Positions 848 through 24,590 of a stretch of DNA of 45,407 bases are shown in pieces. Position 1 is the stretch's first letter. Each line of letters begins with the position of its first letter. Source of the DNA: a virus; IMG/VR virus record IMGVR_UViG_3300042691_034885, positions 1 through 45,407 of that record, one strand, 5' to 3'. A model generated the notes under the pieces. The model was not told the origin of the DNA. It worked only from the letters and a program-made list of their open reading frames with translations, and searched no databases. Both the position numbers and the translations under genes were made by a program.

Positions 848-1069
848 TTATACGAGTTTCCAATTATTATCTCTTTCAATTATGGAATATAGTTCGCCAA
901 CGTATTGGATTCCTTTGTCATTTTTGATGTATCCATACGGTATTTCACTGTCATCTATTGCTTTAAATTCCCCCAACTTAAACATTTTTCTTGTTTGTGC
1001 TTCTGGTGTATCGCCCCAGACTGCGAAGAGCGTGCCTTTTTCTAAGTCCATATTCTCACTCCGGCTCAT
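848..1069 (-). CDS. Small hypothetical protein (73 aa)
   Basis: A 73-residue acidic protein whose start overlaps the end of the 1208-residue gene by 14 bases, consistent with translational coupling within the minus-strand operon. An internal ATG at residue 7 (MDLEKGTLFAVWGD) is an equally possible start and would remove most of the overlap. The sequence looks like a small folded alpha/beta protein with aromatic residues spread throughout, and has no signal peptide or membrane segment. I do not recognise a family. It is kept as a real gene because of its tight packing and strand agreement with its neighbours. Confidence 0.6.
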   Translation of the reverse strand: MSRSENMDLEKGTLFAVWGDTPEAQTRKMFKLGEFKAIDDSEIPYGYIKNDKGIQYVGELYSIIERDNNWKLV

Positions 1070-4000
1070 CTAAAACATCGGACTCCGCAAGGCCCTTGCG
1101 CAACATTACTATGGGTATGTCCAAACTTTCGGCAACTTTAGAAATCTGAATCCAGGTTGGGCTTTCCATCCAGTTATCCACATCCACACCTGGCCCAAAA
1201 TGCTCGAAAAGCATTTCTGGATTATTTTCGTACCATGCCTCATCAATGATGATGTGAGAAATATCTTCGAGAGAAACACCGCCGTGAATCTGTGCTTCAA
1301 TAAATGGCCAGTTTTCATAGTCCGTCGGAAAGCCAAGCTCAGCTGTCCGTCTTCGTCTTTCGCTTGAAAAATATGCGTCTTTTGTTTTGGGGTGAACTGT
1401 TTGGTTGTGAAGCCCATCCCATGTGCGCTTATTCGGAATTAGGGTAGATGCTGCAGTTTGGTGGCCGAGAGAGTCGGCCTGCGTCCATGTCGTCCTATTT
1501 TCTACTCCATCTTTTAAGACGATTGTTGCGGCGCCATATTGGGTTGATAGTTCATCACTGTCCTCGTTTGTTCCACGACGAACGGTTCCATAAATTGGTC
1601 GTTGTTTGGTTTTCGGATGGATTGAAAACATTGCAACTTCCTGAATCGAACGAAGGTCGGGGTTAAATGCACCTTGACTAGTATTGGTTTCGTGTTGTGT
1701 TTTTAATCTTCCATCGTTAAATATTTTTTCTAAAGTTGGTGCTGGGACAGTGATATTGACTGTTTCCGCACCCATAAAATCAATATTGTCAAATACCGAT
1801 TCAGTTGAGTCTTTCAATGTTTCTAGCGACTCTGGAGTCATGTCTGAATCATCGAACTGTTTTTTTAGATAAACAGCTCGAGCAGCGTCAACTGATGCGC
1901 GCATTACCAGGCCATAGGCAATTTGCCTATTTGTCTCCCTGTCATTAACCCCCAAAGAACCCAGTGCCATCTGCAAAATCATTGCGTGTCTATGTTTTAT
2001 GTTCTGAAAATCGCTAACCAGTTGGTCTTGTTTTTGTTTTTCAACCGCCGAGGAGAATAAACCAAATTCAAACATGTGTGGCGGTATCTCAAGCGAAATT
2101 GCATCAGTTGCACCAAGTGCTTCTATTTCACCAACCAGGGAGTTGTAATGGTCATTTAATTCAGGATGCAATTGTCCTGGTATCAACCAGGATATCGGCT
2201 TCCCGGTACGCTCTGCTTCAGCGATGTCGTCGGTTGGTTTTGGCAGGCTGAGATATGAAGACGGTGTAGAAACGACATGGTTAATGAAAGCTTTTGGATT
2301 GCGCTTTCTTGCAGATGTATTTTCTGCATCAACAGTCTTAATGTGCGAAGAGGCAATTGACATTGAGCCAGTGATTCCTAGTTCGTCATTGTGCAATTGC
2401 TCTAGAATCGGCATCGTGATGTATTGTTCTGGGAACATTGATGATTTAACTTTTTGTAAATCTAGTTGTCGTGGTTCAACGCCATTGGACTTTGCCTCAT
2501 CGTGGACAAGCCCCATAAGTTCTTTTGCGTTTTTGTATTGACCAAAAGTCAATTGGTCATAAATTGAGCTATTGAGAAGATTTGGCTTGTCGCGCAGAAG
2601 TTGTGCTAGAACTCCGGCGTGCCTATCTTTTAGCAATCCCTCCAATTGCGCCGAATTGATTTTTTCTGGCACATACAGTTTTTTGAAAAGTTCATCACTA
2701 ACCACATCGGAAAGGTGTTTCAGCGTTGAAGCTTCTTTCAGTCGTGAAATAATTGATTTATCGCCGAGTACATCGTCTATGGCCTCTAGAACGTACGGCC
2801 GCAAATCGTTGTAGTCTGTTGACTCGCTTTCCCCACTGACCACATCGTCTATCTCGTATTTTTTGCCAAATTTGCTATTAATGGATGCACGGAGTTCCTG
2901 TATCCGACGCTCAAATTCAGCGGCCATCTTGTCGTAGTCATTCTTAAAGAAAAGACGCACCCCAACGTTTTGCCCTGTCTTTGGGTCGCGCATAGTCGCA
3001 TACGGATTTCTAATCCAGTTTTCAAAATAGTCCCAGTATTGAGATGGGTTGAGTTTTTTGTCAAGCAGGCCGAGCAAGTCGCGTATTTGGGCGCCGTCTG
3101 CTGTTTCCTTGTTTCTCGCACTTGAGGAATGTGTCATGAATAATCCAAATGGACTATATAGAGCACCGTGGCTTTGCCCTTGTGTCCCCCAAATCAATCC
3201 GAGCCCCTTGAGCATTCCCAAATGTTCATTAAGGGTTTCCCCAAGACCCATGCGTGCCTTGGCTTTCGGTTCCGCATTTCCGTATTTTGCTAATTCATTA
3301 CGCATTTTCCCGCGCTCAAACGCTCGTATGTACTCCACCCGTGTTGAATCATCTGTCCAGTCGAACGTAAAATTAACTTCGGGTTTTGATGCAGTTCCCT
3401 TTTTTCTTTGTGCGAAATACTTGCTTGCGGCTAAATCTATTTTGGCCCATTTTGCAATAAATTGTGGTTCTTTGCGGGGGTCTCTTTGCTCCCCGCCGTC
3501 GTATCCGCCAAATGAGTTTGGGCTTATACCGACAGCCATCGAGCCGACAACGCCATCTCCACGAACAAATGATGTGCGCATTTCGAACCCATTTGGGTCA
3601 TCCCAGAACGCGTCGTTACCGGTTCGGTATCCAGCATTGCGCAAAGATTCGACCATCTCTCTCACTGAGTTGAACTCATCACTGAGACCATGTATCTGCA
3701 TTGAACGCCCTATTTTAAATAGGCGCTGCTGGTTTATGTTTTGAGTCGGGTGTTGCCCACGGTCAAAATCTGGTTTATCAATCCAGTCGTGTTTAGTTAA
3801 ATCCCATGCCATTGATTCCATATAAAGTGATGTTGCTTTACGTAGTGAATCTAGGTATTGCTTATTGGAACGGAGCTGCTGGAGCGGCTCTCCGCCAATG
3901 TGATATTTGAAGCCATATGCAGCACTGCCTCTGTCAATTGGAAATGTCCACCAATCAAAATGTTGGCGGTGAAACTCGAACCAATTCTTTCTACTTGCCC

Positions 4001-4682
4001 ATGACTCAAATTTTTTTACCTGGTCGGCTTGTTCACTAATTAGATTATCTACTCCAATGAATGGGGCTTTATTAATCCTTCTTTCTGGGACATTAGGATT
4101 TTTAAATTTGTCGAACACACCCATCGACCCGGAAATAGAACCTCCCGGTGTTGGGTCTGGCATCTCCCTCCATGTGCCATCAAAAATTAGACCATTATTA
4201 TTTGCATCATTGCGTGTCATTGGATTCTGGTCGCCAGAAATCGGTGTGCGTGTAGCAAGTCTTCTGCCTATTCGAGGCAGGGCCTTCCCAACTATTGCAT
4301 GTTCGTTGAGCCCACCGTTAAATACACCAGGTATCATTCCTCCGCCAAACGCTGTTACTGCTCGGCCGGCAGGGAGGGGTGGAGGATTAAGTATTTCTGA
4401 ATAAGCCTCTTCTCCGTCAAGGACAACTGTTCCACGTCGTTTTTTGCGACGCAATTTTTTAGGAATACCAGATTCATTATTGACGTTTTTTGTTGCCGAA
4501 CCAAAGCCAGAAGATTCTCCACTGACTATGCCGACACCTGGTATGGACACCGGTGCTGATGGCAATCGTTCTCTGAGTTTTTCCCAGCCAATAGAGGTTT
4601 CTCCTCTTTTGCTGCGTCTTTTCCTATTACGCCGTTTTCTGGATGTTATTGCTGGCGGGTCAATAGGTGATTCGGAATTCAT
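1056..4682 (-). CDS. Giant virion-associated protein (1208 aa) with C-terminal DUF3626/ART-like domain
   Basis: The first 40 residues are strongly basic (RKRRNRKRRSKR). Residues about 150-160 hold an Asp/Asn-rich loop (DANNNGLIFDG) resembling a calcium-binding loop, followed by a Pro/Gly linker and SISGSM (182-187). A large mostly helical region follows, interrupted by GITGSM at 769-774. The C-terminal region, about 975-1195, has the order TLEKIFNDGRLKTQHETNTS, IHP.T..RPIYG, QYGAATIVLKDGVENRTTW, then FIEAQIHGGVSLEDI. This layout recalls DUF3626, which I regard as possibly ADP-ribosyltransferase-like; no activity is proven. The 1626-residue protein carries a paralogous domain. It starts 8 bases after the 141-residue gene. 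The role as a packaged or injected protein is inferred from its place in the late block. Confidence 0.75.
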   Translation of the reverse strand: MNSESPIDPPAITSRKRRNRKRRSKRGETSIGWEKLRERLPSAPVSIPGVGIVSGESSGFGSATKNVNNESGIPKKLRRKKRRGTVVLDGEEAYSEILNPPPLPAGRAVTAFGGGMIPGVFNGGLNEHAIVGKALPRIGRRLATRTPISGDQNPMTRNDANNNGLIFDGTWREMPDPTPGGSISGSMGVFDKFKNPNVPERRINKAPFIGVDNLISEQADQVKKFESWASRKNWFEFHRQHFDWWTFPIDRGSAAYGFKYHIGGEPLQQLRSNKQYLDSLRKATSLYMESMAWDLTKHDWIDKPDFDRGQHPTQNINQQRLFKIGRSMQIHGLSDEFNSVREMVESLRNAGYRTGNDAFWDDPNGFEMRTSFVRGDGVVGSMAVGISPNSFGGYDGGEQRDPRKEPQFIAKWAKIDLAASKYFAQRKKGTASKPEVNFTFDWTDDSTRVEYIRAFERGKMRNELAKYGNAEPKAKARMGLGETLNEHLGMLKGLGLIWGTQGQSHGALYSPFGLFMTHSSSARNKETADGAQIRDLLGLLDKKLNPSQYWDYFENWIRNPYATMRDPKTGQNVGVRLFFKNDYDKMAAEFERRIQELRASINSKFGKKYEIDDVVSGESESTDYNDLRPYVLEAIDDVLGDKSIISRLKEASTLKHLSDVVSDELFKKLYVPEKINSAQLEGLLKDRHAGVLAQLLRDKPNLLNSSIYDQLTFGQYKNAKELMGLVHDEAKSNGVEPRQLDLQKVKSSMFPEQYITMPILEQLHNDELGITGSMSIASSHIKTVDAENTSARKRNPKAFINHVVSTPSSYLSLPKPTDDIAEAERTGKPISWLIPGQLHPELNDHYNSLVGEIEALGATDAISLEIPPHMFEFGLFSSAVEKQKQDQLVSDFQNIKHRHAMILQMALGSLGVNDRETNRQIAYGLVMRASVDAARAVYLKKQFDDSDMTPESLETLKDSTESVFDNIDFMGAETVNITVPAPTLEKIFNDGRLKTQHETNTSQGAFNPDLRSIQEVAMFSIHPKTKQRPIYGTVRRGTNEDSDELSTQYGAATIVLKDGVENRTTWTQADSLGHQTAASTLIPNKRTWDGLHNQTVHPKTKDAYFSSERRRRTAELGFPTDYENWPFIEAQIHGGVSLEDISHIIIDEAWYENNPEMLFEHFGPGVDVDNWMESPTWIQISKVAESLDIPIVMLRKGLAESDVLDEPE

Positions 4683-4689
4683 CGCCGAC

Positions 4690-5115
4690 CTAGTACCTAT
4701 CTGCGTCCGTTACTTCTATACCTGGGTTATCTTTCGAATATGCCTCTACGGCAACAATATAGTTGCCATTTGACTTTTCGTAATATTTTCTTGCCTCTGC
4801 CAATTCTTTAGAAAATTCTTTTTCTAGTTCTGAGTATGGCCGAAAACGTTCTGGTATTTCATATTGTAAAAGTTCATTTCCGTCATTCCATAGCTTCCAC
4901 GCCATATCCATAAATTTGGCGGTGCGTTCGCTGTTTGCCTCGAGCTTAAATGGTGGGAATTCTGCCAACTTTTCGTAATCAAAAATAGGAAACTGGACAA
5001 GCTTGTACATATCATCCAGAACGTCAAGGTCTTCTGGCGTAAGTTTCGACATATCCATCGGTGTTTTTTCCATATTATTACCAACCGCTTCTGTTTCTTG
5101 CTGCTGTTGACCCAT
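4690..5115 (-). CDS. Small hypothetical protein (141 aa)
   Basis: A 141-residue acidic, Tyr- and Phe-rich, probably helical protein lying between two giant genes. The listed ATG overlaps the end of the 2343-residue gene by 38 bases. The internal ATG at 5073 (MEKTPMDMSKL) would avoid overlap; neither start has a clear Shine-Dalgarno sequence, so the start is undecided. No membrane segment or signal peptide is visible. The fold is not recognised. Since it is translated between two putative packaged proteins it may be a partner or chaperone for one of them; that is inference only. Confidence 0.6.
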   Translation of the reverse strand: MGQQQQETEAVGNNMEKTPMDMSKLTPEDLDVLDDMYKLVQFPIFDYEKLAEFPPFKLEANSERTAKFMDMAWKLWNDGNELLQYEIPERFRPYSELEKEFSKELAEARKYYEKSNGNYIVAVEAYSKDNPGIEVTDADRY

Positions 5116-8100
5116 CTGGATATGTTATCGAGGTAAGTATCGGTGCGTACTCTGGATAGTTTTTTATTGGCCTATCTTCAATAATCATCGCCGAACGATT
5201 TAAAATAGTGATTCTGCTTGCGCGCCCACCAAGAAGGGCCTTCCAGAGTTGTGATGGTGTGATTAGTTCGTCTGCAGCGCCCTGTGCGATAAAGCCGTCA
5301 TAGCCCATCATTGTCGCGATATTCTCACCACGCGTATACAGATGGCTACGGAAAGCTCTCCAAACCTTGGCGTTTGCGTCTTTTGCTGATTGTCCGCCTG
5401 TAGATTCGTTCTCGAGTCTCGAAACAATATCCCTACCCATTACTAGACGCTGATGCAGCCATGCGTTCCAGTAGTTCCGAGTGTCCTCAATTTCATCAAG
5501 CTCGTCTTGTGACATGTTAGATGCTTGATAGGCGCTTGGGAAAAGAGATTGCAGCTCAGAAGGTAGGCGATTTCGCTCGTACATCCCCTCGAGCGTTACT
5601 TGTCCCCATCCGGAGACAGATTGTCCTGGCACATACGGGGTTCCAACTTGAGTCATTTGGTCAATGTAGCCATCTAGTTCTGTTAGTTGCGTTGCGCTCA
5701 GCTGTCCTGTATTTGGGTCTGGCTTTAGGCTATTTGGCGGGATGCCAAATATGCTTGGGGTGCCGTGCGTTACGTTTACTCCAGCCCTGGCTCCAGGTGC
5801 TCCAAAACCGTTATACAGAGACCATAGGGATTCATATGTAATGCTTTTCTGGTTGGTTGCAGAACCCTCTGGGCCAAACAGAATGCCGAATGGTTTACGG
5901 TTGGTGAGTATCATGTCTTTTGATAGAAGAGCAACCATCGTTCCGCCATTTTTACCGTGCAACGAAGACCATGACGATGGATTTTGTGCCCAATACTCTC
6001 CTGTTCCAGACGCTCTTTGGCCCTGTCCTGGAATGAATCTATCTCCAGTAAGTGCATCTGTCACCATTTGTAGTTGTTTTGCTGCTGATGCATTTTCTTT
6101 CCCGCCAAGACCACGCGAAATAGCGACATACTTTGGAGACCCGTTAGCATCAACTTCTTTTAGAGCCTCGATTATTTCCTCTCTGCTTAATAAAACTGGG
6201 AGGCTGTTAAAGCCATTGTATTGCCATACCATACCGAGATGGGCTGAGGTTACATCGTAAAACGTTGCGCCAGGGAGTGGTGAATTTGCAGGTCCAATCG
6301 CACGTCCTCCAGCTTGAACCTGGTCGTGCATCTCGCCCAATATGTCCAGCATTTGGAATTGCTCGTCTGTCAACGGAGCGGGAACACCCTGAGTGATTCT
6401 TTGGAATAGTGTTTGAGAGCGATGCTCGTCTCTCAAGCGAGCAATGTCAGCAATTTTTCTAGGCGCAGGTGGTGGGCTTGGAGAGTTCCAAGGGTCAAGA
6501 ATGTCTGGCTGATTGTCGTATAGTCCGGAATTTCTTGGAAGACCGGCAGCCTGTCTTGCAGCAACAAGTCGCAAGCGTTGATTTTTGCGCTTTGCGTTAT
6601 CTTCCATTGCCTCGCGTTTTGATGCCTCTATTGCAGCAAGCGCATTTGGGTTATTGGTGATGTGTTTTTCAAGTAGATATTGAGCTCGTTCTGCTACCAC
6701 ACCGTTATAGATGTAATCATCAAATTCTCTTTGGTAACGCTGCTTTTTGTCCATCCTCCTTCTGCGCCATGCAGTTAGAGAATTATCTCGTGCTCGTTGA
6801 TGAACTGAATAGACTGCACCAATTTGGTTTGCAGCATTTGACCAAGCCAAGTTCGCGCGCTTACGTAGGTCCGCGATGTCTGTTTGTGACATACCAGCTG
6901 GTGGATTATTTGAAGCATGTTCTAGCTGCAGAGCTGTATTTATTGCGGTAACCATTTCGTATGTTCCGCCATTGCGTGCAGCTCGAGCGGTCATTGGTAG
7001 ATAAAACTCACCAATTGGAAGCGCTGGGTCAATTCCCATGCGACTCATATCCGAAGTTAAGTGCGACATACTTGGATTTGCAGGGTCAACGAGAAATTGG
7101 TTTGGTGAAATTACATACATCAATTCGAGTGGGTCGGTAAGAAGCGGATTCTGCAATGCTTGTTGAATCGCAATATTTTTTGCATCAATGGCCTTCAGCT
7201 CCGAAAGTGGAGATGTTGGAGAAAGTGCCATCGTGGCATCGATTAGGGCAAAATCATGACGCAGGTTTCTTTGCATATCGCTATTCATGCGCATTGAAGG
7301 AGAAGCATCATGCTGCGCGATTCTCCGCTTAATAGCTTCGGTAAATGAAGAAATAACACCTTTTCTATGTATTTTGGATGCTGCCGTTTTTGGTGTTGCT
7401 GTTATATCTAGAGTTGGGGTGGTTGGGTCAACGCCAGGTGCAATAACCTCATGCGGAACGTGCTTTTGGAGGGTGTTCTGAATATCGACGGGCATTGTTG
7501 GAAACTCTGCTCCATACATAGGACCGCTATCGATTTCTAGTGGTTTTGGTGTATATATTGCGTGTTGGTCGATTGGGAGATTCGACAGGTCTTCTACAAA
7601 CTCGCCGGTATTTGTATCGATATATAATCCACTTGCCGCGTCAAACGTTATGCCCGCCGATGGATTGCCGACGCCAGGTGTTAGCACTGGCCCTGTCCCA
7701 GCTGGTTTTGGTATCGGTTTTTGTGGAGCTACAACTGGCTTTGATGGCTGTACGGGTACTGGAGCGGCAGGAGTAGTAGGAGTTGGCGGAGATGAAGGCG
7801 CGGATGGCGTAGACGGAACTGGAGGGGCGGACGGAGCAGGAGATGGAGAAGTTGGAGCAACCGATGGGGTAGGAGTATTTTGTGGAGACCTTGGTTGCGG
7901 AGTCGGAATTGGAATTACTGGATATCCGCTATTTCGGCCATACGGGGTGAATGGGCGCGGCTTCTTTTCATCTACTGGGGTACCAACAATTGCACTGTTG
8001 GTCATCACTCTTCTTCTCAGTGAAGGCTTAAGATTTGATACATATCCAAAATCTTCCGTATTAGCAAACTGCGACAGAACAATGAAGTTGTGTAGATTTG

Positions 8101-11100
8101 TTTCCTCTATTCCAGCACGCTTCGGGTCCGTTTTCTTGAGTTCTGCAATCCAATCCAATACATCGCCTTCTTTGATTGGTGTCGCGTCAACGTCTTTAAT
8201 TCCGAGCGCTTTAGCGAATCGGCCTGCATGGTAATCAAGCTCCTTGAGCATTTCTTTTTTAAGACGCGCTTTTTCTACATCGCCAAGAGATGATGGCATC
8301 TCTGGGCCCGTTGTGGTTTTTGCAAATCGTAGACCGAAACGTTTGTTGTCATAAACAATTGCGCGAGACCTGGCGCGCATTGATGGAGCTGGCGTTTTGT
8401 CTTGTTTTGGTTTTCTGAATTTTCCTCTAACCCTTTGAATGAAAGATGGCTTTACCACTTTTTCTGGTTCTTTTGTTAGCAGTTTTTTTGTATATTCGCT
8501 CGCAATATATTTTATTTCAGAGTTGCCATTCGCATCTACCACTTCTACTGCTGAGGCAATATGATTACCATCGTCATCCATGAAGTGCGCCGCAGAGCCG
8601 TCCGCAAGCTCAATATAAACTGGAGGCTGGCTCGATTTTCTACTGCTGTATTTCCACGAGTTTCCTATACCGTCATTGTTTTCCGTGAGCAATTTGAAAT
8701 TTGAAATTGCACCCTGCGGTGTAGGTTGATTTGGGTCATTAAAAGCCTCTGACCATTTATCAATTGCTTTCTGCAAATCGTCCTGGTGTTCCTCATCGAA
8801 TGAATCTGGCAATAATGTCTGCCTATTTGGGTCCATTAACATTCGATTCAGATTAATTAGACCATCAAAATTGGTCGCTTCACTTCTCCAGTCCGCCGCA
8901 AGCCTGCCGGCCGGACCGGGTGGGTCAAGCAATAGTGGGTGAACCCTGCTATCGGACATGAAGAAATGCCTCGGAGCAAGGGCGTCACTAGGCGTCGTCA
9001 CCCCAGGAACGTTACGCATTGGTATGTCTGATATAAAATCAGCAAGGTTTCGATATTGTGGCAATAGGCTTTCTTCTACTGGTTCTTTTCTGATTCTTTT
9101 AGCAGTCCGACGGAGCATGTTTGCAGCACGCTCGCGTCGTGAATTCGTTGGTCGAGGTCTACGACCGTACATTTCTCTTATAGCGCGCTCTTTATCAGTA
9201 GGAGGTTCGAATAGGGAGTTTATGTTTTCGAGCAAGCCAAAGCGCTGAACAATAGGAGATTTGGCTGGCTTTGAACCACGTTTCTTGCGTTTTGCGTCTC
9301 CGCTCGGAGTAATTACGTTTGCAGCTTTATCAGCTCCACGCTTTGTTGTGTAGGTGCTTGCTCCCTGCATTGCACCCCTGACACCATTCGTGAACAGGGT
9401 ATTCCCAGTAACCCAACTTGTATTAGCGAGGTCGCCGTAGGATACTGGTGGATTGACTCCATAATGGGCAACCTGGAGAAGTGATTGTCCATCTGTATCA
9501 AACATCACAACAGTTTTCCCAGCATCAAACCAATTTGATTCAGCTAGGTGGTCGCGCCAAAAATTACTATCAAACATCCATGCATCTGGTGAGACAGTAT
9601 TCTGTACTGTTGTTCGTTCGGCCTGCAGAGCAGACAAAGCGCTTTGATTGCGTGGATAGGCGACTTCATAAACAAATCCACGAATCCGAGGTTTTCCGTC
9701 ATCTCCGGTGCTAAAAATCGTTCGCAGTCTTTCGCGTATTACACCATTACCGTAATTCCTGTAATTTTCTGATACGTATGCGTTTGCGCCACCTTGGATG
9801 AACGCAGCGGTAAACAACGCCATCGCCACCTTTTGTGCGTCATCTGGATTGGCCTCATCCCATTGCGACATGTTCCCAGGGACATGGAAAGAAGCAGATG
9901 AGTTATTGAATATGTCATCCATTACCTGGTCGCTGTCTTTGGATGAAAGGTGCTTGATTCCGACATCTGTAAGTATGTCGTCCATATATCCTTTTGCGTA
10001 CGCAAATTGCGGAGTCGGTTGAGCTATGCGACCACGCATTATGTTCGGAGCCAACTGGCCTGCGCCGGTGTCAATCATTCGTGCCGCGTTTGTTAGTACG
10101 CCGTTATATTTTTTGTCATCAAGGAATTTAGATTTGTTGAGTTTTTGTTTTCCTTGGCGACGCGCGCTCCTTCTTCCTGGTTCGCGTATGTCTTGTGCTG
10201 ATTCACGCAATCTTGCGGCAATCATTGCTCTCTTGCTTGGTCCGCGACGACCCCTTCTTCCATTCATCAAAGCCCTTGCAGTTGCTTCGCCCATTATCGC
10301 GGCATCTAGTTGGTTGCGTGGGTCTAGTCGACGTCCAGGTTCATAAGTGCGTGCTCGTTCGTCGAGTTCATCCGCTATTGACCGTCTTGCCAACACCGCC
10401 ATGCCGTAATACTCATTTGGCGATATATATGCCGGGAGATAGCCGAAACCCATCGTGATGCTATCTCTTTCATTGGGGGCCATATTTGCCGTTGGGAGCA
10501 TTGTTTGGTAATCAAACATTTCCCCCGTGGCGTCGTTGTAGTAGATTCCATTGTTGGCAATACCACTTGGGATGGTTCCACCATTGGTTCGAAGCTCATC
10601 TGTGATGGTCCAATCAGGCTCCGTATAAATGCGGTACATTGATTTGTCTGCGCTTAAAAAATCTTCAGCCTCTTCACGAGTTAAAGATTTCCATAGACCA
10701 GGTTGCAGCGTTCCTAAATATGTTTTGCGCACATCCTCAATGGTCATTAGCGGCTTATCCGTACCATCTCTGTAATTTCGAGCAATTGATTCAAGTTGGA
10801 ATATTTCGGCTTGCGTTAAAAAAGCAGGTAGCGAACTAACTTTTAGCCCATTTCCGTCAATGTTATCTAGGTTGACATAAGGCATGGTTCCAAGAGATAA
10901 ATAAAGATTGTCGCGTGGTTGCATGCTGTCAAAATTCAGCATCGTTCCATTTGTGGAAAGTAGCAAACCTTCATTTGACAATTTTTTTGGCAGCATTCCG
11001 CCACCAACGCGGTATTCACTAGGAATCCTATTATCCAACTTAAACGTTGTTTGTTTTTGGGCTTGACCAGTATCCTTGGGTATTCGCCGTTCAGCTCGGC

Positions 11101-14223: not shown

Positions 14224-14989
14224 CGAATGCCTCTGCGCGTGGTTGTTCAATCTCATATCCATGAATATGTTCCCAGTTATTTTCATCACGCAGGTGCTCA
14301 CAGAATTCTGGTTCCATCGACATGAAGTCCTGTAGTACCGAAATTGCGTGATTCCAGTCTGCTTCAGTTATTACTGGGCTGAATGGTGTGTCTGTCCCAC
14401 GAACGCCAACAAACGCCAACGATTTTCCACCAGAACGAGATGTCAGTTTTCTAATTCTGTCATCAAACTCTCTATCTGACCACAGTGAACCGTGTTTGAT
14501 TTTCTTCAATTTCTTCTTGCAATTTTTCATCCCTGGATGGTGGCAACCCTCGTTCGGCCACAGGCCAGTTGTTTCGTGATGCAACCAGGCACAAATATTG
14601 TTGAGTGGGTAGAGTTCCGGGTGGTCTGCAAGGATTACTCTACAACGTCGGAATCCGCCTTCTCTGCGCATAATTGGGCGCCAGTAGCGTAATAGTCTTT
14701 CGAGGTTGCCGCGTCTTGGGCCGCGACCCTTAAGCACGTCTCCGGTAATATTTTCTTGCGGTATGACTGCGCCAGCAGGGCCGCCAGCTTTTTCTTCAAC
14801 CTGTTCGTCAGGTGTTTGTTTTATAACAATTTTTCCGTTAAGGATTTGCTCAAAAATATCCACTGTTGCTCCTGTGTCGGCGAAGATAAAAATTCCCCCT
14901 GGTCTCATTGTACGCATAAAACCAGCGGTATTTATAATGTCAACGGTTAATGTACTTTTTAAATAGTCTTGGTCGTTCGGTTTGCTCAA
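14201..14989 (-). CDS. Hypothetical Cys/His-rich phage protein (262 aa)
   Basis: A 262-residue protein with a central segment dense in conserved-looking residues: GGFRRCRVILADHPELYPLN, then ICAWLHHETTGLWPNEGC, then HHPGMKNCKKKLKK (about residues 108-158). Four cysteines and several histidines in about 50 residues suggest a structural metal site. I have a recollection of similar segments in other actinobacterial phages but know no function. The start overlaps the preceding gene by 50 bases; a later ATG (MRTMRPGGIF) is possible. Its stop overlaps the 705-residue gene. Placement within the capsid-side operon suggests a virion or assembly role, by inference. Confidence 0.7.
   Translation of the reverse strand: MSKPNDQDYLKSTLTVDIINTAGFMRTMRPGGIFIFADTGATVDIFEQILNGKIVIKQTPDEQVEEKAGGPAGAVIPQENITGDVLKGRGPRRGNLERLLRYWRPIMRREGGFRRCRVILADHPELYPLNNICAWLHHETTGLWPNEGCHHPGMKNCKKKLKKIKHGSLWSDREFDDRIRKLTSRSGGKSLAFVGVRGTDTPFSPVITEADWNHAISVLQDFMSMEPEFCEHLRDENNWEHIHGYEIEQPRAEAFDADTLDF
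14230..14234 (-). promoter_or_regulatory. Shine-Dalgarno AGAGG deciding the 705-aa start
   Basis: On the minus strand AGAGG lies 6 bases upstream of the ATG at 14223. No comparable motif precedes the upstream in-frame ATGs, so this site argues for the shorter 705-residue product. Confidence 0.55.
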
Positions 14990-15290
14990 GGGCGTGTAGC
15001 GATGCGTGCACTTTTTTATTGTATGGATTCGTATTTTCTTTCCTTGGAACCATCACGATAAACTCTGCCTGCCATTTTGGGTTATCTATATCCATTGACC
15101 ATAGGAATTTCTGATATTCATTTTCTTTGATTGGCTCAACATCGTCATTTCCGGCTATAAACGACATGAATGAGACGGGGTTTTGTTCATCGCCATTGAC
15201 GTAAATGCCGTCAAATTTATCAGCTCCAGAAACGAAGTAAAGTTTGCCCGTTTCGCCCACGTTTGCTACTAGGTGTTTTTCTATAGCCAT
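14940..15290 (-). CDS. Hypothetical protein (116 aa)
   Basis: A 116-residue protein beginning MAIEKHLVANVGETGKLYFV. Its ATG overlaps the stop codon of the 1626-residue gene (TAATG arrangement), indicating translational coupling. The N-terminal half looks beta-rich and the C-terminal half ends in a basic helix. No Cys, signal peptide or membrane segment is seen. The family is not recognised. Coupling to the exonuclease/metallopeptidase polyprotein makes a partner role conceivable but unproven. Confidence 0.65.
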   Translation of the reverse strand: MAIEKHLVANVGETGKLYFVSGADKFDGIYVNGDEQNPVSFMSFIAGNDDVEPIKENEYQKFLWSMDIDNPKWQAEFIVMVPRKENTNPYNKKVHASLHALEQTERPRLFKKYINR

Positions 15291-18200
15291 TATTGTGCCT
15301 TCGGTTTCTTGTACTTGATTATTAGTGGCTTTTTATCATCGTCCATACCGTCAATCATCCACTGCGCGTTACGTCGCTCATTCATGATGTCAACAATTTG
15401 TTCAATTATTTTTTGTCTTAGCGCGTCTTCTGCTGCAATAGTCTTTTTTGCATTCTTGTCGAATGTCCGTGGGTCAAATATGTTCAAGCCATATTTATTC
15501 GTCACTGAAAGGGTGATTCCCATTTCTTCCAGCTTATCTTTCATATCCCTAGCGGCACGCAATCGAACAAATTTATCAACATTTAGTTTAATGTCTTTTT
15601 CGTCTGCTCCAAACCGATTCATCTGTTTTTGTAATGAATCAGGTATTACGTACGAATCTGGTTTTGATTCCAGAATTTTACCGACAACAAATTTTTCTTC
15701 CTCGTTTAAACCCATTGCCTCAAAATCATTATCACCGATGAGCGAGCGCTTCATGTTTTTAATGAAATCTGGGCCTTGTTCTTCAGACGTATTGCTGATG
15801 AAATTTTCCGGTACGGAATCAAATTGAATTCTTACTTCGTCGATATCCGATGCGTCAAACCCACCGGCTATGAGTGCTTCTCTTGGCTCCCAGGAGCGCC
15901 CAGGACTAATTGCGTATTTCTCGCGACGATATGCATTGTGGTCGTCCTTAAAACGGTTATATAGGTGCTCAATAATATTCTCAGCTCTATTGTCTGTTTT
16001 GAAAGATGAGTCAACATGTGCCCTGGTGATTAGTTCAATATCTGTACTGCCAAGTGATACTGGCTCAATATGGTTATTAAACAAATCACCATTGCCATAT
16101 GCAGTTCTATCTGAAACACCGGGTTTGAGGATAATTTCCGCACTTCCGAAGTTCCAGTTATTTCCACGCGTTCTTCTGGAGTGTGGATAATCGACAAGAT
16201 TTGGAAAATACCGCTCGGGGTCGGATTTGTCGCTATTTTCGAGAAATCTCAATATGTCGCGTTGTTCTCTTTCGACCTCGTCTGAATGGAGAACTATTCC
16301 ACTAGCAGGGCGAAGTTCTGCCGGAGTATCTGGGTGTATCCCAATATCAGCTTCGTATTTTGCAAGAACTTTATTCAATCCCGAAATTCTGTTTGTCTGA
16401 TGGCTATTTTTGAAACCATTCTCAATTACGTCTTTTAGTTTTGATGCGTTTACGTGGGTGCGTGGCTGCGAATCAAGACCATCATGGAAATCCATAATTG
16501 CTGCATTGAGGTCTTTTTCTAGTTCCTCGACATTCGTTTCAATTAGGTACCTATAGAATTCTGGATTTAATCCGTTGAGTGCTTCTTGTGCAGCCATTTT
16601 TGATAGCGCATCCCATTGTGGGCTCCTGTTCGGGTCATTCGGGCCAAAATCTGGAGGAGGGGGATTTCCCGGAGGTGCGGCAGCAGCTACTTGTGGTTGG
16701 TTTTCATTAGGGACAAAAGATGCAGCAAGAGCTCTTAGTTGTGTGATATTGCTCTTGCGTTCGGCAATTCTTTGGTCGCGTGTTGAGCGCTCTGCAGTTG
16801 GTCCAAGCAACGTATTCTCTGGCTTTACATCATCGATGTACTTTAGGCTCGTATCTCCGCCGAAGTTGCCGCCATATTTATTTATTTCTTCTTTTATTTG
16901 TTTTGTTTTTCTATCTGAAGCCCTGGATGAAGCAAGTTGTCTACCTACAGACATAGAACCAGTTATTTCTGCATTCTTTTCTGCTACAAATCTTTCAAAT
17001 TCGATGAGTTCTTTTTCGAATCTATCTTTTGCTTCCGCGACGCGTTTGCCCTGGGAATTCATATCCAGAACTGTTGTTGGAAGATTTTTTTCAATTGCCT
17101 TATCGATGAGAGCTGCCATGACTTTGCCTGCGGCTTCGGAGTCGGCATCAGCTGTATGGTGTTTTGAACCCAAATCAACACCAAGGTATTGAGTTATGTC
17201 GGCTAGACCATTTGAAGCTTTTCTTGTTTCTGGGATGACGGTTCCATCCTCAAGTATTTTTTCTTTGACAAGCTTTGACGGTCCTTCTGGGTTTTCAGGT
17301 GTCCAACGCGGAAGTGTATGTTCAGCTACGTCTTTTGTATCAATATACCCAGATGGTCTCCATTGAATACCAAGTTTTTCAAGAGTTGCATCAAGAACGT
17401 CTTTGTCGAACGGTGCGTACTGGACGCCAAATATTGCGTTTTCACCAGCGAACTCCGCGAGCATCTGGTGGGCCTTTAATTTGCTCACTTGGCCACTCAG
17501 CCAATCATCCGTGAGTGTATTTCCTTCTTTATCTTTGAGGTATTTTGCCGACCACTCCCCAAGGGGTTTATCTGGCTTCATGAAGACATTGAGGCGGTCG
17601 AGTACTTTGTCACCCTTCATTCGTACGGCACCTATTTGTACCGGGTCGCCTTTGTCCACGGTCCGGCCATCTGCGTCGTGTTCTATTCCTGTAGTTTCGT
17701 AATCAAAATAGACAACTTCTGTTTCGTCGTATATCTTTTTAAATTCTTCCCACGTTTTTGCCCCTCCAAATATTTTTTGCGCTTCGCCAAGGAAGGAGCC
17801 ATAAGTAGCTTCGCGTGGATAATGGATTTCGTCCTTCTTTGCGGCCATTCTTCCGGTGATGGCTGTTGCCCCTCTATCACGGGTTAGAGGCTGCCATGAT
17901 TGCTGTTCCGGCCGCTTTCTTCGTGACCGTGTTTCATTGTTGCGGACAGCTCTTCTGACATGTTCTGCGTGAAGGCTTACTCTTGGAGCCTGTCCGCCGA
18001 CTTGCATTGCCCCAGTTATATTCCATGTTCCTGGTCTTACCTGGAAGGTGTGTCTACCTATGTTGTCTAGGTCGCGCATCACTTCTTGTGGAGTTTTGCC
18101 AGATATGTTCCTGACTGTTGATAATGGGGCTCGGAATTTTTGAAATGGTTTAGACGCTTGGGGCCCAGAAGTCATCGCATTTGCAAAATCTTCAACGTAG

Positions 18201-20170
18201 TTTCGATTTCTGGTTTGTGGATTAACAGGTCCATACCCAAATGGTTTTTGTCTTGACAATCCTCGATTTGAAAGCAATCTACCCTGTTCGTTTGTTTCTC
18301 CAAACAAACGGCGTGCTGCGTAGTATTCTGCACGTGCTTCAACTGGGTGGGAAGCCGCATACTCTCCACCCGCAAATGCACGCATTAGTTCTAATTCTTC
18401 CGGTGTATCTGTGACGTTATTTACAACAGCTTCATTGAATGCTTCATAGAAGTTCTCAAGGTCGCGTTTGAGGTCGTTTGAATTGAACATGCCTCGTCCA
18501 CCTGCATACTGACGAGTTTGTAGATTTCGTGCAGCATCCATAACCAGCTGGATACTTGGGCTGTTCAAAGGATTTTGCATGTTGGTGAAATCTATTATCC
18601 AAGCGTTATTTTCTTTTCGCGGTAGCCACTGCGCACCAGCTCCGGTAATTCGTGATGGAGTAAAGCCAGTTGGGGTTACCTGGTATCTCGAGAGACGATT
18701 TACATCAAATCCAAGCGCCTGCATCGCACTTGCAAAGTGTGCGAGATGCCCAACTTCATGTGTCGCCGTATAGTGCATGTCGCCCTGCACGCTGTCCCAG
18801 AAGCCGATTGCGCGTGCATCTGGGTCTCTATTGTCCAGTGATGATGCATATAGAAGTCGTGGGTTTATGCGCATTGCAACATGCACACCACCCTGTGCGG
18901 CATTTCTGCCAGAGGTGAGTTTTTGACCAACTCCGCTAACATAGCGACCCTTATCGTCAATCGCTGGGGGAAAATGGTCAAGAACCATTTGGAATGCATC
19001 ACCCATGTTGTAATCGGTTTCAAATTTAGTGACCCATTTACCAAGTTCTGGGTTGTTTATTATTTCAGCTATCGTTGATTCCCAAAATTGCGTGAATGCA
19101 CGTCTTGCTCGAATACGTTCTTCGAAAGTCATTCCCGCTGGGATGGCCTGTTCAAAGTAGTTAAGTATTTCGTTTTCTGGAAGGTGTGGGAATAGCTGCT
19201 TCATTGCGTTGAGGAAGTTCTCCCGTTTGCGTATGTCGCCAACCACTTCCCCGTTTGGGAGCCTGTCCAGCCCAAGCGCAATGCGCTGGCTTGTTATCTT
19301 CGCCAATTCTGTGGCTCGTTTGCCGCGAGCTAATTTTTCTTTGCGTCCCAACAGGTATGGCTCTGCTTCTGCTGGGGCTCTTCTTGCCGGGTCGTATCTT
19401 CCACCGGTCATTGCGCCGACAATTCGTCCACCGCTTGCCATAAGACTGGATACTTCGTCGTAACCCATATCTATGAAATCTTGTTGGGTTAAATTCGCTA
19501 AATCGCGTGCTCCCTCAAAACCACCACGAGTGCGTTCGCCCATTTGTGCTGAGCTTGTTGCGGCGGCGCCAGCACGTCGTGCCATGCGTCTTGCACCTTG
19601 AGCCATTGTTGCCGGCGATATGACAAAACAGTTGGACATCCGTTGGTCGGTAAATTGGTTAGCAGCTGGTGTCCCTTCAGGGCAGCGCAACTTGTTTTTG
19701 TCATCCACCCATGGTTTCAGGCCGAAGCGACCCATCATTGCTCGCGACAGAAGCGTATCTATTTCGTCTCTGAGTTTTGGCCCGAGTGACTTGGAGTCGA
19801 GTGTTAGGTCGTTGTGCTTAAATTTGACCTTAGGTTTTTTGGTTCTATACTCTGGCATTAAGTCAAAATAGTTTGTATCTATTCTTCTTGGATTACCAAA
19901 CTTGCACAGGTGCATTGATTTACCTGGCGGTATAAGCGGGAGTATGTCGCCCTGTTTCCACGTATTAAGAAATTCTTCATACGGGTTTGCAAACTCTTTT
20001 TCGTTCTGCTTTGCTGGCTTCTCTTCCGCCGCTGGTTTGTCTTCTTTTGTTTCTATTTGTGGTGCAATAAAAACACCAGCGTCTCTTGCCTGAATAGCTC
20101 TCGCTATTGCTTGATTGACAAAATCGCTTTGTTTATAGCCCACTGAAGGTCTCCCAGCGCGAGGCCACAC
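15290..20170 (-). CDS. Polyvalent protein (1626 aa): zincin-like + DEDDh exonuclease + DUF3626/ART-like
   Basis: A multidomain protein. Residues 163-181 hold the shared cysteine module (CPEGTPAANQFTD...C). Residues about 375-625 resemble a zincin metallopeptidase: HEVGH at 471-475, with acidic segments (YEAFNEA about 575, EARAEYYAARR about 611) that could supply the third ligand. Residues about 815-1025 are a DnaQ-fold 3'-5' exonuclease: D823 and E825 in FDYETTG, D922 in APFDKD, H1005 and D1010 in HTADAD form a full DEDDh set. A Pro-rich linker (about 1155-1185) leads to a DUF3626/ART-like domain (about 1235-1460), paralogous to the end of the 1208-residue protein. NITGAM (717-722), ITGRM (771-775) and ITGSM (1069-1073) bracket the exonuclease. 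Virion packaging is inferred; domain presence is seen directly. Confidence 0.85.
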   Translation of the reverse strand: MWPRAGRPSVGYKQSDFVNQAIARAIQARDAGVFIAPQIETKEDKPAAEEKPAKQNEKEFANPYEEFLNTWKQGDILPLIPPGKSMHLCKFGNPRRIDTNYFDLMPEYRTKKPKVKFKHNDLTLDSKSLGPKLRDEIDTLLSRAMMGRFGLKPWVDDKNKLRCPEGTPAANQFTDQRMSNCFVISPATMAQGARRMARRAGAAATSSAQMGERTRGGFEGARDLANLTQQDFIDMGYDEVSSLMASGGRIVGAMTGGRYDPARRAPAEAEPYLLGRKEKLARGKRATELAKITSQRIALGLDRLPNGEVVGDIRKRENFLNAMKQLFPHLPENEILNYFEQAIPAGMTFEERIRARRAFTQFWESTIAEIINNPELGKWVTKFETDYNMGDAFQMVLDHFPPAIDDKGRYVSGVGQKLTSGRNAAQGGVHVAMRINPRLLYASSLDNRDPDARAIGFWDSVQGDMHYTATHEVGHLAHFASAMQALGFDVNRLSRYQVTPTGFTPSRITGAGAQWLPRKENNAWIIDFTNMQNPLNSPSIQLVMDAARNLQTRQYAGGRGMFNSNDLKRDLENFYEAFNEAVVNNVTDTPEELELMRAFAGGEYAASHPVEARAEYYAARRLFGETNEQGRLLSNRGLSRQKPFGYGPVNPQTRNRNYVEDFANAMTSGPQASKPFQKFRAPLSTVRNISGKTPQEVMRDLDNIGRHTFQVRPGTWNITGAMQVGGQAPRVSLHAEHVRRAVRNNETRSRRKRPEQQSWQPLTRDRGATAITGRMAAKKDEIHYPREATYGSFLGEAQKIFGGAKTWEEFKKIYDETEVVYFDYETTGIEHDADGRTVDKGDPVQIGAVRMKGDKVLDRLNVFMKPDKPLGEWSAKYLKDKEGNTLTDDWLSGQVSKLKAHQMLAEFAGENAIFGVQYAPFDKDVLDATLEKLGIQWRPSGYIDTKDVAEHTLPRWTPENPEGPSKLVKEKILEDGTVIPETRKASNGLADITQYLGVDLGSKHHTADADSEAAGKVMAALIDKAIEKNLPTTVLDMNSQGKRVAEAKDRFEKELIEFERFVAEKNAEITGSMSVGRQLASSRASDRKTKQIKEEINKYGGNFGGDTSLKYIDDVKPENTLLGPTAERSTRDQRIAERKSNITQLRALAASFVPNENQPQVAAAAPPGNPPPPDFGPNDPNRSPQWDALSKMAAQEALNGLNPEFYRYLIETNVEELEKDLNAAIMDFHDGLDSQPRTHVNASKLKDVIENGFKNSHQTNRISGLNKVLAKYEADIGIHPDTPAELRPASGIVLHSDEVEREQRDILRFLENSDKSDPERYFPNLVDYPHSRRTRGNNWNFGSAEIILKPGVSDRTAYGNGDLFNNHIEPVSLGSTDIELITRAHVDSSFKTDNRAENIIEHLYNRFKDDHNAYRREKYAISPGRSWEPREALIAGGFDASDIDEVRIQFDSVPENFISNTSEEQGPDFIKNMKRSLIGDNDFEAMGLNEEEKFVVGKILESKPDSYVIPDSLQKQMNRFGADEKDIKLNVDKFVRLRAARDMKDKLEEMGITLSVTNKYGLNIFDPRTFDKNAKKTIAAEDALRQKIIEQIVDIMNERRNAQWMIDGMDDDKKPLIIKYKKPKAQ

Positions 20171-20220
20171 ATTTATGGTTAGCCCGAAGTAATGGTTGGT
20201 ATGACACCAACAATATTACA

Positions 20221-21732: not shown

Positions 21733-22106
21733 TTGTCTTGCTCCTTGTATTGCATCGAACTTGATAGACAACCTTTTGGGTTGCTACAACCACCGCAAGG
21801 TTCCATGCGTTTTGCGCCCGAAACTATGCAGTGATATTTGTTTGAAATTTTCTGTTGCTGTATAGGTTTAGCATAACCTATAGATGGGTTGCTCTGGCTG
21901 ACGTTACGCATTTTGGGGCGTGTAAAACGAGACGATTTAGCCTGAATCGACGTCATCTTTTCTTGTTCAATCCGACCTTCCAGTTCGTCTAACTTGTTAT
22001 TCAGTTTGGATACCAAGTTGGAGTCATTCGCGGCAATTGCCGAATCTCGTTTAAATTCAGTGTTCCTCAACGCATTGAGAAGTAGTTCCATGTTTTTGTT
22101 GGGCAT
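21729..22106 (-). CDS. Small helical protein with C-terminal Cys cluster (125 aa)
   Basis: The N-terminal half is a predicted charged coiled-coil (LVSKLNNKLDELEGRIEQEK). The C-terminal end has CIVSGAKRMEPCGGCSNPKGC, four cysteines spaced like a small zinc or disulfide knot. It begins 6 bases after the protease gene and its stop overlaps the scaffold-like start (ATGA). The cysteine spacing resembles the clusters in the neighbouring acidic protein. No family is recognised. A role in capsid assembly is inferred from position only. Confidence 0.7.
   Translation of the reverse strand: MPNKNMELLLNALRNTEFKRDSAIAANDSNLVSKLNNKLDELEGRIEQEKMTSIQAKSSRFTRPKMRNVSQSNPSIGYAKPIQQQKISNKYHCIVSGAKRMEPCGGCSNPKGCLSSSMQYKEQDK
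21741..21746 (-). promoter_or_regulatory. Strong Shine-Dalgarno AAGGAG before the scaffold-like gene
   Basis: AAGGAG on the minus strand sits 8 bases upstream of ATG 21732 and inside the end of the 125-residue gene. It supports the shorter start and suggests high translation of the acidic protein. Confidence 0.7.
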
Positions 22107-22112
22107 TTTCGG

Positions 22113-24590
22113 CTATCCGCCAAATTTGGCTAGTTCATACACTTCAAGCGGCTGTTGGCCCTCGATTTGCGATATTGCATTGACAAGTGCGTTCACGCCG
22201 TCAACAGTTACGGAGGCTATGCCACTGATTTTGACTCCTTCGTCGTTCGCGATTGCTGAGAATCCGTGATACTCGGCAACTGCATCAATCGCAGATTTAA
22301 CATCGAAAATGAATTCTGGTCGAATATCAATTTGGAATGAATCAATTTCTGTTGATTCAATCTGTAGACCAGACTTTATTTCTAGGTCGTGATGCTCTGA
22401 AATCGATACGTAAACGCTCATGTCGGACTTGCCTCTGGCCCTCCCCGCTCTTTCGAGCACCGCATTCCGTCTGGCACGAAGCACTGCCTGACGCAGGCGC
22501 TTGCGGACTTTTTCTTCCGAGATATTGTTGCGTTTTGCCAGATGGCGAATAGCCGCATCCATTGCACGCTTTGGTGAGCCAGATGGGTTTGATGCATCGT
22601 TTTCAAATTCTCGCAACTGCGACAAAAGATTTTCACCAGGATTTCTTAGGCCCATCGCCCCAGTTACACCGCGGGCAGGAACCTCTCTTGGTGCTGGCTT
22701 TGGCGTCGAGGGTGAAGGAGCAGGACGTGACGGCGCCGGCGCAGGGCTTGGAACGCGGTATGGTCGTGGCTCTTTTTCTGGAACTTCATGAGGTATTTCT
22801 TCTGGTTTTGCAGGCATCCTTGGCGCGACGTATGGCATGTCGTCTTCGCCAGTTGCCGGGTTTGTGACATTGCCATCACTATCGCCATCCCTGCTTGGCT
22901 TACGCATTGAGCTTGCACGTCTTTTAGCCCCACCGATTGCACTACCGAGAGCTTTTTCATTAATTCCTTCAAGTGCTGTCATCAATGCATTTTGTGCTTC
23001 TGGTCCGTACCAGTCCATATTCGGAACTGCAAAACCGTCAGCAAGGAGCTCCACGTCAAACCCATGAGAACCACCAATTTCATTGGCGGCTTCGTACATC
23101 TCCATGTTTTGAGTCTTAACGAAAAGGTGAAGACCCGGGGTTTCATCTTTAAATACTTTCCAAGATTTCATGTTTGATTGTCCAATCTCACAAGTTTTTG
23201 CTCCTCCACAACCGCATCCACAGTCGCCATCATCGTCTCCATGCTTCTCGGCATCTCGACGCATCATCGCTCCGTAGAAGTCTTCACGGCCAACAAAGCG
23301 TTTTGGTTCGCCCTGTATCGCCACTGATGGACCGCCATCAATTGGAAGATAGACAGTTTCTACTCTGACCCTGTTTGGTGGCCCAAACATAAAGTTCTCT
23401 CCGTCTGGGGTGTGCCATGCCGCGCGGATTGTTTGCTTGTCACCATCTTTTTCCAAGTCGAAGATAACCATATTTTCATCTGCTTCGCGGACCGTGACAG
23501 GACCGCCAAAATGCATTCCGAGGTGTCTGGCCAAACCACCCATGCGTCCGTTTATCGGGTTTATCGCATTGCCTCGTCCTGAATAAATCGGCATGTATTT
23601 AACTTCTGATTGTTCATCAGATTTCTTTTTTGTATTTTCGTATCTATCCAATAAACGGCGACCCTTTGCTGCAAGTTTTGCTGCGTCAGATGCATCTTGT
23701 GGCACAGGTTCACCCCATGCGGCTGCGGAAAGAGCGAGTCTTGTTGGGCGCCCCTTCTCATCTTTCATTGGACCTGATGGATTGGTGAAAAATCTCGTTA
23801 GGAATGAACCTTTACGGCGCATCTTTTGCGGAGTATCGGCTGGACCTTTTACTCCTGGTTTTAGGTTGGCACCTTCTGTGCGTCTGAAGTGTGCGCGACC
23901 AGCAGCAGTGAGACCACCCTTTGGGTCCTTGAGCGGAGCGCCCTTTTCTTCAATAGGAACACAATTCGGAACCATTTCGCCGTTTTTGCCGGCCTTCATT
24001 CCAACCTGCTTATACCCAGGCCAACATGGACCATCGGAACCCTTTGATTCAAGCTCCTGTTCATCTGCCTTAATAGAAATTGTTCCGGTCAGTTGATTTG
24101 CGCCATGCAGCACTGGGCTGACTTCGTATAGTTCCACTTCTTTTAGAAGGTTGGCTTTTTTCTGGTTGTCGTATGTTGCGTCAAGTGTTTTATACCCAAT
24201 TGACCATTCTTGTTCTTCGCCGAAAAATTGGATATTACTAAAAGCTTCCTTGCCTCTTTCTGACTTGAGGTTGAATTGCACTCTTGTATACAAGCCGCCG
24301 ACGCCATTTGCTCTCATTTTCGCTGGCAGGCGTGGGTCCTGTGGGCCGACTTCATAAATATCAAGGACCTTGCCGATTGGCTCATTCCAGTTGTGGCCCC
24401 ATACAACACGGGGTTTTCTGCGTCTAAGGGACGCATCAAAACATCCTGGAAGACATATATCCCCAACGCTGTCTTTGTTGCCTATCGCAGCAGTAAAGCA
24501 CTCAACTATTCCAAGTGCTTCATTCGTGCTGATTAAGCCTGGAATTGATTTGTACTGAGTTTCAGTAAAAGTTTCAGTAAAGTTGGTCAT
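22113..24590 (-). CDS. HK97-type prohead maturation protease, multidomain fusion (825 aa)
   Basis: Residues about 10-165 match the S78 prohead protease family: H66 in WGHNWNEPIGK, S130 in EWSIGYK and E156 in LYEVSP are the likely catalytic triad. Typical family members are about 200-250 residues, so this is a large fusion. Then come a cysteine module (PCWPGYKQVGMK...VPNC, 179-200), a DUF6321-like region (KDPKGGLTAAGRAHFRRTEG to about 315), an alpha/beta region with a CGCGCGGAKTC cluster (447-457), an Asp-rich loop (DGDSDGNV, 558-565), a Pro-rich linker, GVTGAM (641-646) and C-terminal helices plus an alpha/beta domain. The protease matures the capsid by cutting scaffold and other proteins inside the prohead. 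The 97-base gap to the portal contains no gene. Domain names other than the protease are from memory. Confidence 0.85.
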   Translation of the reverse strand: MTNFTETFTETQYKSIPGLISTNEALGIVECFTAAIGNKDSVGDICLPGCFDASLRRRKPRVVWGHNWNEPIGKVLDIYEVGPQDPRLPAKMRANGVGGLYTRVQFNLKSERGKEAFSNIQFFGEEQEWSIGYKTLDATYDNQKKANLLKEVELYEVSPVLHGANQLTGTISIKADEQELESKGSDGPCWPGYKQVGMKAGKNGEMVPNCVPIEEKGAPLKDPKGGLTAAGRAHFRRTEGANLKPGVKGPADTPQKMRRKGSFLTRFFTNPSGPMKDEKGRPTRLALSAAAWGEPVPQDASDAAKLAAKGRRLLDRYENTKKKSDEQSEVKYMPIYSGRGNAINPINGRMGGLARHLGMHFGGPVTVREADENMVIFDLEKDGDKQTIRAAWHTPDGENFMFGPPNRVRVETVYLPIDGGPSVAIQGEPKRFVGREDFYGAMMRRDAEKHGDDDGDCGCGCGGAKTCEIGQSNMKSWKVFKDETPGLHLFVKTQNMEMYEAANEIGGSHGFDVELLADGFAVPNMDWYGPEAQNALMTALEGINEKALGSAIGGAKRRASSMRKPSRDGDSDGNVTNPATGEDDMPYVAPRMPAKPEEIPHEVPEKEPRPYRVPSPAPAPSRPAPSPSTPKPAPREVPARGVTGAMGLRNPGENLLSQLREFENDASNPSGSPKRAMDAAIRHLAKRNNISEEKVRKRLRQAVLRARRNAVLERAGRARGKSDMSVYVSISEHHDLEIKSGLQIESTEIDSFQIDIRPEFIFDVKSAIDAVAEYHGFSAIANDEGVKISGIASVTVDGVNALVNAISQIEGQQPLEVYELAKFGG

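Follow-up and report, generated by a model that had tools for sequence, protein, structure and literature searches.

The prohead protease of phage T4, gp21, cuts at (I/L)xE. Those of phages phiKZ (gp175) and SPN3US (gp245) use the motifs SxE and AxE, respectively (PMC5694885). Polyvalent proteins are giants of phages and conjugative elements that are encoded among virion genes and carry a zincin metallopeptidase (MPTase), ArdC-N, ADP-ribosyltransferase (ART) and other effector domains (Iyer et al., 2017; PMC5512222). The available text of that survey proposes autoprocessing by the MPTase and cites two large packaged proteins that bear it: DdrB of phage P1, which is processed, and the virion RNA polymerase of phage N4. 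Polyproteins of eukaryotic RNA viruses offer an analogy, with enzyme modules split at short sites for a virus-encoded protease.

The locus described here lies in a 45,407-nucleotide stretch of viral DNA (the window; IMG/VR record IMGVR_UViG_3300042691_034885). Together with its relatives, it resembles polyvalent-protein loci in the modules (RNase_T, NUDIX, DnaJ, zeta-toxin-like, ART, sigma region 4, Clp_N, UvrD and ArdC-N in proteins of 1.2–5.3 kaa), in a zincin MPTase with HExxH plus a downstream glutamate, and in the position of the giants between the portal/S78 genes and the major capsid protein gene. However, the available text on polyvalent proteins (PMC5512222) describes no recurring cut-site motif, no lineage-specific motif switch and no set of giants sharing a motif, and it treats DdrB and the N4 polymerase as single proteins, with no site array described. 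As with T4 gp21, phiKZ gp175 and SPN3US gp245, a short, phage-specific motif occurs in head proteins and in the C-terminus of the protease protein (PMC5694885). In SPN3US, the capsid protein is cut at the same motif and processing is mostly propeptide removal (PMC5694885), whereas here the capsid protein has no motif and a single protein carries up to 23 sites. The RNA virus polyproteins involve unrelated enzymes and viruses, whereas several polyproteins would here derive from the head genes of a dsDNA phage.

A sequence-only reading of the window had named six strict copies of the motif [IV][ST]G[SAR]M, and all are present where it placed them (coordinates of the window are on the minus strand unless stated). 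The 1208-aa giant (1056–4682) has ISGSM at aa 183 (4122–4136), where relatives have DPTPGG-EISGRM or DPTPGG-PVGQM, and ITGSM at aa 770 (2361–2375), where relatives have ITGKM, ISGRM or ISGKM. Beyond its last motif, close to the C-terminus, is a DUF3626 domain (aa 985–1163; 1194–1730; Pfam). The 1626-aa giant (15290–20170) is composed of an N-terminal region, a zincin metallopeptidase, an exonuclease and C-terminal modules, with ITGAM at aa 718 in a low-confidence linker past the zincin (18005–18019), ITGRM at aa 771 (17846–17860) and ITGSM at aa 1069 (16952–16966). The last two bracket the exonuclease, as the sequence-only reading had it: Pfam places the RNase_T module at aa 820–1016 (17123–17713), starting 44 aa after ITGRM and ending 53 aa before ITGSM. 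The sixth copy, VTGAM at aa 642 (22653–22667; VTGAM, VSGRM, ISGRM or PVGRM in relatives), lies in an 825-aa protein annotated by PHROG as head maturation protease (22113–24590). This protein has a Peptidase_S78 domain (aa 28–171; 24078–24509) with catalytic His (GHNWNEPIG) and Ser (EWSIGY) blocks that look intact, a DUF6321 domain (aa 221–292; Pfam), the long motif-bearing linker and a C-terminal part. The portal-MuF head morphogenesis protein (24688–26976; PHROG) has no motif.

The looser matches flagged as needing statistics fared unevenly. VVGSM at aa 378 of the 1208-aa protein (3537–3551) aligns with VVGRM in two relatives, and VRGAM at aa 910 of the 2343-aa giant (9368–9382) is a degenerate match near the one site of relatives (ITGQM or ISGRM), the giant itself (5078–12109) having no strict motif. 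The strings in the tape-measure protein (LTGAM and LSGAM; 39837–44801, plus strand) fall short of the strict pattern and probably have no relation to the candidate cut-site motif. VVGSM 378 may be a real site, judging from the alignments, as may IVGAM at aa 250 of the 1626-aa protein (19409–19423), which aligns with VSGAM or ISGAM in relatives. By contrast, the surroundings of VNGQM at position 605 of the 731-aa protein are themselves conserved (flank identity 0.47), and the strict motif that some relatives have at this position may be a chance match.

The motif is far above chance, is selected as a peptide and switches in concert within a lineage. Composition shuffles of the left-half (head-gene) proteins of the window gave an expectation of 0.05 strict copies against the six observed, an excess of about 100-fold; the highest count in 2,000 shuffles was two, and six was never attained. 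The right-half proteins have no strict match. Thus, the comparison with shuffled proteins proposed in the sequence-only reading bore out the enrichment, and the homologue alignment proposed with it showed the motif kept while linkers vary. An unbiased pattern scan of the window alone placed the motif among the top patterns, not first; it is the relatives that carry the case for it.

Searching IMG/VR with the S78-containing protein retrieved 217 relatives, of which 80 were kept. The longer ones have the gene order portal-MuF, S78 protein, several giants of 1–5 kaa and major capsid protein; the window stops short of the last giant and the capsid gene. The motif recurs in the giants of these relatives, with ten sites in one protein of G005 and eight in one of G003. 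A scan of every three- or four-residue spaced pattern, with no motif pre-specified, ranked ISG.M first in the head giants of G003 and G005 (17 and 18 copies versus 0.11 expected). The top pattern in G009 was GP.G.M (16 copies versus 0.10 expected), in which the Ile-Ser part is swapped out and G-x-M kept. A second clade has GLAS, G[FLM]AS or LSSG in place of the motif. The scan recovered 15 copies each of GLAS (0.33 expected) and GMRS (0.06 expected). The alternative motifs found in the same role are GPVGxM, GLAS, RLSSG, RFSSG and GMRS; STRS is a further recurring pattern. Motifs of groups A and B follow the form Phi-x-G-x-M and then a small residue; Met is absent from those of groups C and D (GLAS, LSSG). 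The extreme case is a single 3,645-aa S78 protein (L402, 9992–20927) with 23 GMRS-like sites. Another S78 protein (L412, 9992–20990) also bears UvrD helicase and ArdC-N anti-restriction domains.

In about 40 of the 61 dereplicated lineages, some pattern recurs at log10 P ≤ −8, in Poisson values that take positions as independent, on metagenomic contigs, with some lineages kin to each other and a few of the top patterns Pro-rich or otherwise not motif-like. After shuffling inside 30-residue blocks, the best log10 P was −4.3 to −6.6, compared with −13 to −33 in motif-rich relatives. No recurring motif was seen in the isolated Gordonia, Brevibacterium and Microbacterium phage relatives, and neither the zincin region nor the 262-aa protein matched any isolate. 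From these contigs, the group with the motif system appears to be one of widespread uncultured tailed phages, with dozens of related phages and a motif private to each lineage. For host assignment, the only matches to metagenome-assembled genomes were two contigs labeled Gammaproteobacteria SP183, which carry S78 relatives (L439 and L440) and could be wrongly binned phage contigs.

Codons at the motif sites are mixed, with all four Gly and all three Ile codons in use, and the upstream DNA varies. The mixed codons indicate that selection acts on the peptide and, together with the variable upstream DNA, rule out DNA-level repeats as the source of the motif. Where positions can be matched between relatives, the motif changes in a concerted manner. 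For example, the linker position of the S78 protein reads VTGAM, VSGRM, ISGRM, LSGAM, PVGRM or PAGRM depending on the lineage, and the 1208-aa family has a conserved DPTPGG followed by SISGSM, EISGRM, PVGQM or PVGRV, as in the switch from SISGSM to PVGQM. Such joint switching of many sites is the expected outcome of a specificity shift in a single reader.

The motif is also interdomain and travels with inserted modules. Pfam domains contained none of 81 motifs, against an expectation of 9.2 (P = 0.0004), a result bounded by the small share of the giants that Pfam covers. In homologous proteins, 32% of large-insertion ends were within 40 aa of a motif, compared with 14.5% in the null (P = 0.001); for both tests, the regular expressions were chosen per lineage once its motif had been seen. 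In one insertion of about 1,490 aa (G002), each end lies no more than 5 aa from a site. The modules bracketed by motifs include exonuclease, ART, NUDIX, DnaJ, zeta-toxin-like, sigma-region-4 and ArdC-N, and some modules fused in one phage are stand-alone genes in another. RNase_T is mostly 44–46 aa past one motif and 53–54 aa ahead of the next, and modules start 9–10 aa (DnaJ, three phages), 15 aa (Clp_N), 11 aa (ART) or about 4 aa (ArdC-N) past a motif. In an AlphaFold model of aa 270–800 of the 1626-aa protein, both motifs are in disordered-looking stretches with pLDDT < 50 and the zincin core is well predicted.

Enrichment, placement at domain boundaries, cassette-like insertions and concerted lineage shifts strongly support the earlier proposal that the recurring interdomain motif is a candidate site for phage polyprotein processing. 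Our main reading, to which we assign a probability of roughly 0.65, is that a protease recognizing the motif cuts the giant head-gene proteins into separate enzymes. That the motif is cut at all is quite probable on the sequence evidence. The giants would be made as polyproteins and cut at the motifs between modules; their packaging with the phage DNA as polyvalent proteins, with release of the modules as individual effectors, is likely.

The cutting enzyme may be the zincin of the 1626-aa protein (aa 270–640; 18251–19363), a candidate motif reader with HEVGH at aa 471–475 and EARAE about 130 aa downstream. Both elements are conserved in relatives (HExxH, then E[AT]xAE about 130 aa on), and HExxH is in a helix of the model. 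A Foldseek search of this model against the PDB returned nothing significant, and a zincin ranked first solely in a second-look alignment (Z 8.3). Zincin identity is 52–72% within some motif groups, 33–44% within the broad ISG/ITG group and 12–28% between groups; between the window and G009, for example, the zincins are 17% identical and the S78 domains 77%. We favor the zincin as reader, at a little short of even odds, because its divergence follows the motif groups while S78 and the capsid protein are conserved, and because Microbacterium phages with S78 and giants of 1.5–2.2 kaa showed neither HExxH nor motif. This is in line with the general MPTase proposal in the available text on polyvalent proteins (PMC5512222). 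Phylogeny nonetheless confounds the zincin–motif association, since rapid change is usual in the giants in any case, and the zincin is part of one. A phylogenetic profile failed to separate the two enzymes: two relatives (G010 and G011) have both zincin and S78 but neither the motif nor long fused giants.

The sequence-only reading had given the cutting, inside the capsid, to the prohead protease. As the head matures, S78 would then read the motif and cut the giants and also the C-terminal part of its own protein, which we consider rather unlikely. S78 occurs in all lineages examined, and the protein that houses it bears the motif in the C-terminal linker. Furthermore, the prohead proteases of T4, phiKZ and SPN3US process head and ejection proteins at phage-specific motifs, including, in SPN3US and phiKZ, their own C-terminus (PMC5694885). 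However, the S78 domain is 62–95% identical across all motif groups, unrelated motifs included, and 68–94% in a further comparison across unrelated motifs, with invariant catalytic blocks; its loops vary and could set specificity. It also has a weak structural resemblance to herpes proteases. The major capsid protein, the expected main substrate and one that SPN3US cuts at the shared motif, argues against this role: in relatives, aligned over its N-terminal part, it showed no motif and no covariation. A capsid delta-domain bearing the motif was looked for and was absent; NGANM is nearly invariant across all lineages and shows no covariation. The Microbacterium S78 giants, as noted, have no motif. 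The probability left by zincin and S78 falls to some other phage or host enzyme. Taken as a whole, the picture of packaged phage polyproteins with up to ~20 products each, freed by an embedded zincin whose motif is rewritten per lineage at all sites independently of the conserved, capsid-maturing prohead protease, is tentative, with the odds somewhat against it.

The motif could instead be an uncut docking peptide through which every module binds a partner in the scaffold or capsid. Such a peptide would show the same peptide-level, lineage-specific conservation, and an EF-hand-like cassette often adjoins the motif. Yet the conserved partners (capsid, portal and S78) do not covary with it, and up to 23 copies per protein, one between nearly all module pairs, make docking improbable. 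Internal translation starts at an ATG for the motif Met, which is always present in groups A and B, are rejected as a general explanation and have a negligible probability, given the Met-free lineages of groups C and D, the mixed codons and a variable upstream DNA that lacks any shared Shine-Dalgarno-like sequence. Composition bias, repeat homology or chance, for which G-, S- and P-rich linkers and small counts in the window might speak, is just as implausible in view of sites in non-homologous contexts, separate lineages each with its own motif and local-composition shuffles that come nowhere near the values of motif-rich relatives.

We found no description of these motifs in open-licence PMC papers. 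Processing of fused phage takeover proteins has already been proposed, and we found no report of their cut sites. A motif readable from sequence would make the mature effector products of the giants predictable, allow the embedded protease and its many sites to be compared as a co-evolving pair and make phage polyprotein processing directly testable by N-terminomics.

Other elements recur in these giants. Three window proteins (12106–14301, 5078–12109 and 15290–20170) and relatives share an N-terminal element, RCPEGTPxGGQFTD...C, at about aa 165–195, a possible common targeting domain. A KSANYTNP-type domain that opens a 3–4-kaa giant in several relatives is encoded at 2–760 of the window, in an ORF of at least 253 aa running off its edge. 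The EF-hand-like cassette, FDPNAxDGDxDGxVQ[DE]xTxFERP, recurs in head giants (L116, L118 and other loci), often directly ahead of a motif, and is possibly a packaging or docking tag. In the window, it reads NDANNNGLIFDGTWRE, at about aa 159–180 of the 1208-aa protein (4143–4208), directly ahead of the first motif.
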